A DNA stretch of 64,000 bases from positions 186,001 through 250,000 of the forward strand of contig NZ_PYGE01000006.1 of NCBI RefSeq assembly GCF_003014555.1. The letters run 5' to 3'. The position numbers and the translations under genes are program-made. Below the pieces are notes generated by a model, which did not search any database, was not told the DNA's origin, and saw nothing but the letters and a program-made list of their open reading frames with translations. Of the stretch, positions 15,502 through 41,662 are shown piece by piece (position 1 is the stretch's first letter; each line of letters begins with the position of its first letter). The stretch comes from Haloactinopolyspora alba (GTDB lineage: Bacteria; Actinomycetota; Actinomycetes; Jiangellales; Jiangellaceae).

Positions 15502-16512
15502 TCATCCCCGCCACACCGGCGGCGTTCCGTCGTCTCGGGCCTCGGCCACGTCCAGCCCGGCGGCGATCACCGCGTCGACGATGCCGGCCAGCCGAGCGGC
15601 GCCCAGTGACGGCGCCCGGCCCGCCATCGCCCGCACGATCGCCGCTTCCCGGTCGGCGTCGCGGCCCGCGTACCCGCCGACGGGCTTGAGCTGCTGGATA
15701 CGCCCCGCCAACGCCACCCGGTGCTCCAGCAGCGTCGCCAGCGCCGCGTCCACCCCGTCGAGCGCCTCCCGGCACCCCGGCACCGAATCCGGCACCGCCT
15801 GGCGCACGAGGGGCGCCAGCCGGGTCGCGGCCTCGCGCGCCTGCCCCACGTCGCCGGCCGTCACCGGACCGGACAGCCACAGCCCGTCCGCCCCGCCGAC
15901 GACGGCCACGGCCGCCTGCGCCGCCACGGACGCGGTGTCGACGTCGGCGAGCACCGGCACGCCGTGACGCCGGGCCTGTTCCAGGGCCGGCAGGTCATCG
16001 GCATCGACCAGGACGGCGTCCGCCCCTGCTCGCCGGGCAGCTTCGGCCACGTCACCGGGCGCGCTGTCGCGGCGCAGCCGGAGCACGACCGCCGCGTCAC
16101 GCGCCGCGGCAGCTGTGTGCCGCTGCGGGGCGTCCACGGACTCCCTGGCCGGCTCCCGGTCCGGGCCGGCGGCGTCGTCGGCCACCACCACGACGGAGGC
16201 ACCCGAGTGCGACGCGGCCGTGTAGCGAGCGGATCCGCCGTCCGGCTCCGCCGTGAGATCGACCAGTACGCCCGGGCCGGTGACGTTCGTGGCGCCGTCC
16301 ATGTCGATGCCGGCAGTGGAGCCCGTGGCAGCGTCCACGTAGGCGGGGTCCACATAGGCGGCGTCCACGTAGACGGCGTCCGCGCCGGTTCCGGGCGGGG
16401 CGACGATCGGGACGCGCGGTCCGCCGACGGTCACGCCGTCGGCGAGGACCAGCCGGGCCTTTCCTCGTCCGTGCGGGGACGGCTCGGTGGCGCGCGAGGC
16501 GGGTGCGGTCAC
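15502..16512 (-). CDS. chorismate mutase (AroQ type) with a long N-terminal TIM-barrel-like extension
   Basis: Residues from about 247 to 325 match the AroQ chorismate mutase fold, with counterparts of the E. coli active-site residues in order: Arg in CREALDG, Arg in LLEHR, Lys in RIQQLK, and Asp/Arg/Glu in DADREA. It should convert chorismate to prephenate for Phe and Tyr. The first 245 residues are Ala/Val/Asp rich; GADAVLVDADD, GVPVLADVD and GGADGLWLSGP look like beta-strand ends of a barrel, perhaps a decayed DAHP-synthase-like or similar domain. They also hold the repeats DAVYVDAAYVDPAYVDAATG. AGGAG precedes the GTG by about 7 bases. An upstream leader peptide and hairpin set suggest control by aromatic amino acids. 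Confidence 0.7.
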   Translation of the reverse strand: MTAPASRATEPSPHGRGKARLVLADGVTVGGPRVPIVAPPGTGADAVYVDAAYVDPAYVDAATGSTAGIDMDGATNVTGPGVLVDLTAEPDGGSARYTAASHSGASVVVVADDAAGPDREPARESVDAPQRHTAAAARDAAVVLRLRRDSAPGDVAEAARRAGADAVLVDADDLPALEQARRHGVPVLADVDTASVAAQAAVAVVGGADGLWLSGPVTAGDVGQAREAATRLAPLVRQAVPDSVPGCREALDGVDAALATLLEHRVALAGRIQQLKPVGGYAGRDADREAAIVRAMAGRAPSLGAARLAGIVDAVIAAGLDVAEARDDGTPPVWRG

Positions 16513-16576
16513 TGATGGCTCCTGTTCCGGCGCAGCCGCCCGCAGCGAGCCGGCCGCGCGTCGCCGTGAATGACGA

Positions 16577-16606
16577 AAGGCCCCAGGCGAGACGCCTGAA
16601 GGCCTT
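16577..16606 (-). terminator. attenuator hairpin upstream of the chorismate mutase gene
   Basis: On the minus strand AAGGCC-TT-CAGGCG-TCT-CGCCTG-G-GGCCTT forms a stem of about 13 bp with one bulge and a 3-base loop, then TTTCGTCATT. It lies between a short leader reading frame and the chorismate mutase start, where a transcriptional attenuator would be. Confidence 0.75.
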
Positions 16607-16637
16607 GGGTGCCGACTCGGGTGTGGAATCCGCGGTG

Positions 16638-16697
16638 CTACGTCCGACCGCGGCCGGCCACCCGGGCCGGCTCGGTAAAGACGTGATAGCAGCGCAT
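16638..16697 (-). CDS. probable 19-residue aromatic leader peptide
   Basis: ATG at 16697 opens MRCYHVFTEPARVAGRGRT and stops at TAG (16638-16640). Tyr, His and Phe codons (codons 4, 5 and 7) lie immediately before a hairpin (16653-16671) that is followed by a terminator-like hairpin (16577-16606). Ribosome stalling at the Tyr or Phe codons would favour an alternative fold and read-through into the chorismate mutase gene. The start appears leaderless, 6 bases after TAGCAT. This is inferred from layout; expression is not shown. Confidence 0.6.
   Translation of the reverse strand: MRCYHVFTEPARVAGRGRT
16653..16671 (-). promoter_or_regulatory. leader hairpin 1:2 of the attenuator
   Basis: GCCGGCC-CGGGT-GGCCGGC on the minus strand forms a 7-bp stem inside the leader reading frame, starting three codons after its Phe codon. 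Its 3' arm (GGCCGGC) can also pair with the GGCC of the terminator's 5' arm, giving a possible antiterminator. Confidence 0.55.
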
Positions 16698-16703
16698 GCG
16701 CTC

Positions 16704-16733
16704 ATGCTAGCCGAACGCCCACCGCCGGGTCCA
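16704..16733 (-). promoter_or_regulatory. promoter of the leader / chorismate mutase transcript
   Basis: TGGACC (16728-16733) and TAGCAT (16704-16709) are 18 bases apart on the minus strand. The leader ATG follows the -10 by 6 bases. Confidence 0.55.
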
Positions 16734-16780: not shown

Positions 16781-16980
16781 GTCACCTGATCGTCTCCACG
16801 ATGCGGACACCCGGTGATCAGGTGACAGATCGGCGCCCTGCGGCCGCGAACCGTCACCTGATCATTCGGTGTCCGCTTCCCGGACATGATCAGGTGACAG
16901 AAGCGTGGCTCCCCGACCCGGAGACGTCACCTGATCACGCTCGCCGCAGCGATCAGGTGCACAAACGACGATCAGGTGAC
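16781..16980. repeat. seven alternating copies of GATCAGGTGAC
   Basis: The 541-base gap between the chorismate mutase and rluD genes holds seven copies of an 11-base motif: reverse at 16781, 16853 and 16926; forward at 16816, 16888, 16951 (9 of 11 bases) and 16970. They form three inverted pairs. The first two pairs have equal 24-base loops and repeat at a 72-base period, and the second loop has its own TGTCCG-CGGACA stem. They lie past the rluD stop and so may act as terminators, or may be binding sites. The stretch 16981-17053 shows nothing more. Confidence 0.85.
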
Positions 16981-41389: not shown

Positions 41390-41662
41390 CGACACCCCCG
41401 TGTCTCGTGCCGCCCACGACGTCCGGGCACCGCGTCGGGACGTCGTGTCCGCGCCGTTCGTGTCAGCCACTGAGTCCGCCGCTCGCCGTCGATCGCGTCC
41501 GTCGCCTCTCGTCCGTTTCCCTCGGTGCTGTCCGTACGACCAGGTCCCCGCCCGCTCGGGCTTGCCAGCTCCGGCTGCTTGGCACCGGGGAAGGTGCGCC
41601 AACCAGCCATGAGCGGCCGGAGACCTCGCCGTACGCACATGCGAGACGTGCCCTGCGGCGGG

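Follow-up and report, generated by a model that had tools for sequence, protein, structure and literature searches.

The gene for a chorismate mutase (CM) in Haloactinopolyspora alba is preceded by a short leader that is very probably an undescribed switch tying the synthesis of phenylalanine and tyrosine to the translation of a tiny leader frame. The stretch of DNA analysed, 64,000 nucleotides in length, is here called the window. A leader-peptide attenuator in front of the CM gene is strongly supported by the comparison with relatives, because an in-frame open reading frame (ORF) with a near-invariant Phe codon, a terminator, a covarying helix (P1) and an exclusive linkage to the CM gene are found together. 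Such an attenuator would explain an otherwise unannotated leader in front of an unusual CM gene, and it would be a control element for the branch point of Phe and Tyr synthesis that is widespread in two actinomycete families. The features of the locus are as follows.

16704-16733, minus strand: promoter read from the sequence, with -35 TGGACC (16733-16728), a spacer of 18 nt and -10 TAGCAT (16709-16704)
16638-16697, minus strand: leader ORF of 19 codons, MRCYHVFTEPARVAGRGRT and a stop, with ATG at 16697, 6 nt past the -10, and TAG at 16640-16638
16686-16688, minus strand: codon 4 of the leader, Tyr UAU, read from the sequence
16677-16679, minus strand: codon 7 of the leader, Phe UUU, followed by an invariant A (comparison of 138 leaders)
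16678-16682, minus strand: candidate antiterminator 5' strand GUCUU in codons 6-7, pairing with AAGGC at 16606-16602
16659-16671, minus strand: 5' strand of P1, codons 9-13, with its partner at 16623-16611 (covariation)
16653-16671, minus strand: local hairpin GCCGGCCcgggtGGCCGGC, -14.2 kcal/mol, the first hairpin of the earlier note
16630-16653, minus strand: inner hairpin P2, whose loop holds or adjoins the stop codon of the leader (folds predicted for the window and for relatives)
16611-16623, minus strand: 3' strand of P1, past the leader stop codon, with its partner at 16671-16659 (covariation)
16577-16606, minus strand: terminator-like hairpin T, AAGGCCTTCAGGCG-TCT-CGCCTGGGGCCTT, then TTTCGTCATT (sequence and covariation)
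16602-16606, minus strand: candidate antiterminator 3' strand AAGGC at the base of the T 5' arm, pairing with GUCUU at 16678-16682
16530-16560 (ends approximate), minus strand: hairpin P3 just upstream of the ribosome-binding site (weak covariation)
15502-16512, minus strand: CM gene, with GTG at 16512-16510 and the Shine-Dalgarno (SD) sequence AGGAG at 16523-16519

The leader frame and its occurrence in relatives

An earlier note on this DNA had described a promoter TGGACC/TAGCAT followed after 6 bases by a 19-codon frame on the minus strand, and both are present as described. The promoter pattern GTGGAC...TANNNT is kept in relatives. A CM homologue is present in 15 of the 22 genomes of the window's own family, and all of the homologues there with sufficient upstream DNA carry the leader MRTYLAFIEPARVAGRVEA, ending in a stop, or variants of it. 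The leader stands upstream of the homologous CM gene in 15 of these 22 genomes, and a second actinomycete family, f17, adds at least 126 genomes with this arrangement. No CM homologue was found in the own-family genera g2, g4 and g6, the last of which is represented by five genomes. The collection of leaders used for comparison comprised 138 sequences.

A covariance model (R1) of the leader, P1 and P2 was built from 14 leaders. Among 394 genomes of the class its matches were confined to the own family (15 genomes) and f17, with one match per genome, and in f17 it matched 115 of 297 genomes. A second match in one genome (G551, locus L099) lay in unrelated sequence where there is no leader, and was discarded. 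In a sample of 296 genomes from the phylum there was no match except in the window's own genome. Of 20 further CM loci of f17 at which R1 gave no match, 11 have a recognisable, more diverged leader with P1 and T, and a CM homologue lies downstream of every inspected leader that has enough 3' sequence. Because relatives have the frame, the spacing between the -10 and the ATG, the UUU codon, P1 and T in front of the same gene, the leader is more than a product of chance, and judged by this comparison it is a real feature that is conserved across both families.

The frame, start and stop of the leader are kept across relatives with insertions and deletions occurring codon-wise, and the leader ORF is probably translated. 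In all 86 scored leaders the start codon follows TANNNT at a distance of 7 nt (71 leaders) or 6 nt (15 leaders); it is ATG in 66 of them and GTG in 20. This spacing of 6-7 nt would place the start of transcription at or beside the leader start codon, and the leader RNA is probably leaderless, with the start codon at or next to the predicted 5' end. Leaderless transcripts constitute 17% of the transcripts in Streptomyces lividans, several leader peptides among them (PMC8079986), and leaderless upstream ORFs (uORFs) are known from mycobacteria (PMC4633059). The 138 leaders offer a clean comparative case of a probably leaderless leader peptide.

The earlier note had pointed to both the Tyr and the Phe codon of the frame. 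Phe is nearly invariant at a fixed position before P1 (136 of the 138 leaders), but Tyr is not: about 60 of 86 leaders have it, commonly at codon 4 or 5, and His, Cys or Ser often stands in its place. Apart from Phe, the leader peptide is variable in its 5' part, and the leader of the window has only one Phe codon and one Tyr codon. The fixed codon is UUU in 133 leaders, UUC in three, GUG in one and GUC in one, and the base right after it is A in 138 of 138. It is found 18, 21, 27 or 30 nt from the start and is in frame in every scored leader. Phe codons elsewhere in the leaders are UUC in 41 of 41 cases, and among the 84 Phe codons of four window genes there is no TTT. That UUU is kept beyond its amino acid, when UUC is used at the other Phe codons, points to a role for the letters of the RNA as well.

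At the leader stop a recurrent UGANCUAGCGACC is seen among the f17 leaders (for example L036-L046); it holds stop codons in two frames and the leader ends at either of them. A fusion of the leader with the CM protein by frameshifting at UUU was also considered, and was rejected because the offset between the two reading frames is not the same in all relatives.

Conserved helices and a pairing that competes with the terminator

The two hairpins of the earlier note, at 16653-16671 and at 16577-16606, were both found in their places. The former had been taken as the first helix of the attenuator; it exists, but the helix that is conserved, as judged from covariation, is P1 (16671-16659 with 16623-16611), which uses the same 5' strand and encloses the inner hairpin P2 around the stop codon. 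Pairing in P1 was found in 662 of 754 cells over 58 distinct strand pairs, compared with a mean of 622.5 and a maximum of 647 in 2000 shuffles. Changes on both sides occur at nine pair positions, and the covariation was reached in 0 of 2000 shuffles. The first 14 leaders, taken alone, gave weak evidence because P1 hardly varies there. The GGUCG..CGACC of P2 is seen again in f17. The local hairpin at 16653-16671 is an alternative to P1: the two share the 5' strand of P1, have nearly equal energies in the window and compete in folds of partial transcripts.

Hairpin T covaries as well (0 of 2000 shuffles). It follows directly after P1, with a gap that stays within a few nt, and in the window it ends 64 nt before the GTG of the CM gene. 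Its U-tract is poor in the window (TTTCGTCATT), degraded in the own family and strong in f17 (CTGCCTTTTT), and the hairpin is strong and insulated in predicted folds of the full-length leader. In the own family T is missing in L009/L022 and L013/L030 and reduced in L008/L028, with the leader ORF and P1 kept. We infer that transcription may terminate at T.

The only pairing competing with T that the comparison supports joins codon 6 and UUU to the T 5' arm, and it would extend P1. Among the 138 leaders it gave z values of 3.2-4.1 and p values of at most 0.0007 for three choices of test window, and five adjacent segments of 6 nt, used as controls against the T 5' arm, gave z values of -2.1 to 1.0; relatedness is controlled in this test only by these neighbouring segments. 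The helix score for the first 98 leaders had p values ranging from 0.002 to 0.16 with the choice of test window, and the signal of the 6-nt segment at codons 6-7 was consistent once 40 leaders had been added. No signal came from an energy-based test of a longer segment (codons 6-8) against T with a smaller set of sequences (p 0.53). Because the result depends on the test window chosen, the pairing is regarded as supported rather than shown. The pairs seen are GGGUUU with GAGCCC or AGACCC, GUGUUU with AGACAC or GAGCAC, GCGUUU with AGACGC, and ACGUUU with AGACGU, and in L084, where UUU is lost, a pairing of GUGGUC with GACCAC is retained. The minimum-energy fold of a partial transcript of 108 nt from the window, in which the 5' arm of T is complete and the 3' arm absent, consists of P1 and the pairing of GUCUU with AAGGC; T wins in the folds when its 3' arm is made.

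Possible modes of action

The mode of action proposed here is a transcription attenuator that is run by a leaderless leader peptide, is dedicated to the CM gene and has an extended P1 as its antiterminator, a reading on which our judgement is evenly divided. With an RNA that begins at or next to the leader start codon, a 70S ribosome could load on the 5' end. As long as codons 6-13 are free they would take part in one long hairpin, P1 extended by the pairing of codon 6 and UUU with the T 5' arm, which would prevent T and let RNA polymerase read through into the CM gene. A ribosome on or passing these codons (4 to 13) would open P1 and its extension, and T would form. The translation of a Phe codon, and often of a Tyr codon, would thereby be coupled to expression of the enzyme by which chorismate is directed into Phe and Tyr synthesis. 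With this geometry, leader translation would favour termination. We infer that the supply of Phe and Tyr would be the signal, and likewise the sign and the route from scarcity to readthrough; the term aromatic-controlled, used in the earlier note, is suggested by the codons together with the identity of the gene.

One point against the extended P1 is that a ribosome stalled at UUU would block the antiterminator too, and because of this, simple masking would give no readthrough on Phe starvation. Further points against it are the loss of T in two family members and its reduction in a third, the poor U-tract in the window, a window leader with a single Phe and a single Tyr codon, and the small energy difference between the local hairpin and P1 in the window. 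UUU might serve both as sensor codon and as part of the antiterminator, which would be opened by the arriving ribosome, so that the logic is inverted compared with trp/phe attenuation; this is a tentative proposal that we consider rather doubtful. If true, an amino-acid biosynthetic gene would have, in a leaderless mRNA, a terminator that depends on translation, and the 138 leaders make it testable whether the sensor codon doubles as a part of the antiterminator. The predicted behaviour is like that of the whiB7/wblC uORFs, where translation of the uORF favours an intrinsic terminator and disrupted translation leads to the antiterminator and to readthrough, also under amino acid starvation, whereas the signal there is translation impaired by antibiotics or by general starvation, the gene encodes a regulator and there is no rule for Phe codons (PMC11550727).

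A textbook attenuator of the trp/phe type appears somewhat unlikely. A ribosome stalled at Tyr or Phe would then mask the P1 5' strand and a 2:3 antiterminator would block T, which would form when Phe and Tyr are ample. Such a mechanism would suit the Phe codon fixed just before P1, the pathway gene and the U-tract of T in f17, and it is used by aroR-aroF of Corynebacterium glutamicum and by pheL-pheA of Escherichia coli (PMC11802643). However, no conserved 2:3 pairing that includes the T 5' arm was found. The 3' arm of the first hairpin had been claimed to pair with the T 5' arm, but the two are without covariation (permutation p = 1.0) and in the window they merely share a GGCC palindrome. 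Covariation was also lacking between the P1 3' strand and the T 5' arm (p 0.95) and between the 3' arm of the first hairpin and the P1 3' strand (p 0.91), p values that carry little weight if neither strand varies, and pairing of the P1 5' strand with the T 5' arm did not exceed that of permuted partners. In folds of f17 leaders under a mask that represents the Phe stall, the T 5' arm is mostly free. The complete attenuation layout put forward in the earlier note is strongly supported as far as a leader-peptide attenuator is concerned, with the short frame, the Phe codon, P1 and T conserved in the aligned relatives, but not in its classical switch of arms, the proposed alternative pairing not being conserved.

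Control of translation is quite improbable as an alternative to the attenuator with an extended P1. A fold dependent on the leader would in that case hide the ribosome-binding site of the CM gene and T would be a by-product, comparable to the leaderless poly-Cys leaders of mycobacteria. The predicted leaderless uORF, the position of P3 next to the SD, the loss of T in two family members that keep P1 and the leader, and a P1 3' strand in L009 (GGCUCCU) that is complementary to the SD are all consistent with it, but sequestration of the SD by strands of P1 or P3 is without covariation (p 0.36-1.0 in all leaders and in f17, p 0.15-0.90 in the own family). P3 itself covaries weakly (p 0.04 among all leaders, 0.02 within the own family). 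A function in trans of a short terminated RNA or peptide, or a T that is constitutive and independent of the amino acid supply, would agree with the insulated T in full-length folds and with the variable 5' part of the peptide but is very improbable in view of the exclusive linkage of all inspected loci to the CM gene, the position of T within a few nt of P1 and the signal between codons 6-7 and T.

Similar systems and the chorismate mutase gene

Searches of the window leader against Rfam gave no match, the E. coli-type Phe leader family included, and the only hits for the leader L033 were miRNA and CRISPR models below the cut-off. Chorismate and aroF are unmentioned in a 2005 survey of actinobacterial amino-acid attenuators, as are chorismate and Frankia in a survey of premature terminators, and none of eight leader peptides in S. 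lividans belongs to a chorismate mutase (PMC8079986). No prior description of the CM leader was found in Rfam or in the open-licence papers searched. The leader resembles pheL-pheA of E. coli, which encodes a CM-prephenate dehydratase, in placing a Phe leader peptide before a gene that contains a CM. E. coli pheL has a Shine-Dalgarno site and many Phe codons, and the gene fusion there differs from the CM of the window.

A Phe-Tyr-Phe leader attenuator is described for aroR-aroF in C. glutamicum (Neshat 2014, as summarised in PMC11802643), a case missed by the remark in the earlier note that known actinobacterial attenuators mostly serve trp, leu, ilv and his-type genes. Compared by that description, both are actinobacterial Phe/Tyr leaders before a gene of the aromatic pathway, with transcription attenuation described there and predicted here, whereas aroR-aroF serves a DAHP synthase and has a Phe-Tyr-Phe run instead of the single near-invariant UUU; R1 was without a match outside the two families in the sampled genomes. 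The leaderless leaders of Streptomyces (PMC8079986) and the leaderless uORFs rich in Cys codons from mycobacteria (PMC4633059; Canestrari 2020) resemble the layout predicted here in having the start codon at the start of transcription and in preceding an amino-acid gene, but use codons for Leu, Trp, Ile, Thr, Ala, Met or Cys, and no CM case is listed among them. In Acholeplasma, the uORFC-13-1 motif likewise places a uORF with Phe codons upstream of a terminator and of a gene for aromatic synthesis, aroF, whereas the organism, gene and RNA are unrelated to those of the window (PMC8632094).

The CM protein has 336 amino acids with a C-terminal chorismate mutase type II domain (CM_2, 31.4 bits). 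This gene is the single match to CM_2 in the window's genome and encodes the only AroQ-type CM detected there. The domain DAHP_synth_1 (PF00793) matches the N-terminal region with 58 bits in L033 and 26 bits in L036 and is undetectable in the protein of the window, and matches of NCBIfam DAHP synthase models to the CM protein were far below their cut-offs. On these profile scores the N-terminal region is an eroded DAHP-synthase-like domain with graded loss across relatives. The f17 genomes have a separate DAHP synthase-like gene with about 33% identity. Because the DAHP_synth_1 score fades across relatives and f17 has this separate gene, the gene of the window, which has a leader of its own, is predicted to encode a CM whose DAHP synthase-like domain is a relic or is regulatory. 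Three tandem repeats of 15 nt, YVDAAYVDPAYVDAA, are found inside the CM coding sequence at 16327-16381.

Between a rluD-like gene and the leader, at 16781-16980, there is an array of GTCACCTGATC/GATCAGGTGAC inverted repeats with a period of about 72 nt. The genome holds 258 exact copies, which are clustered, compared with 0 for a reversed-pattern control, and paired units are also found in seven other genomes of the family; the array is a dispersed palindromic repeat. Elsewhere in the window, the Rfam mraW RNA was matched at 41522-41642 on the minus strand with a score of 51 bits, which barely exceeds the gathering threshold.
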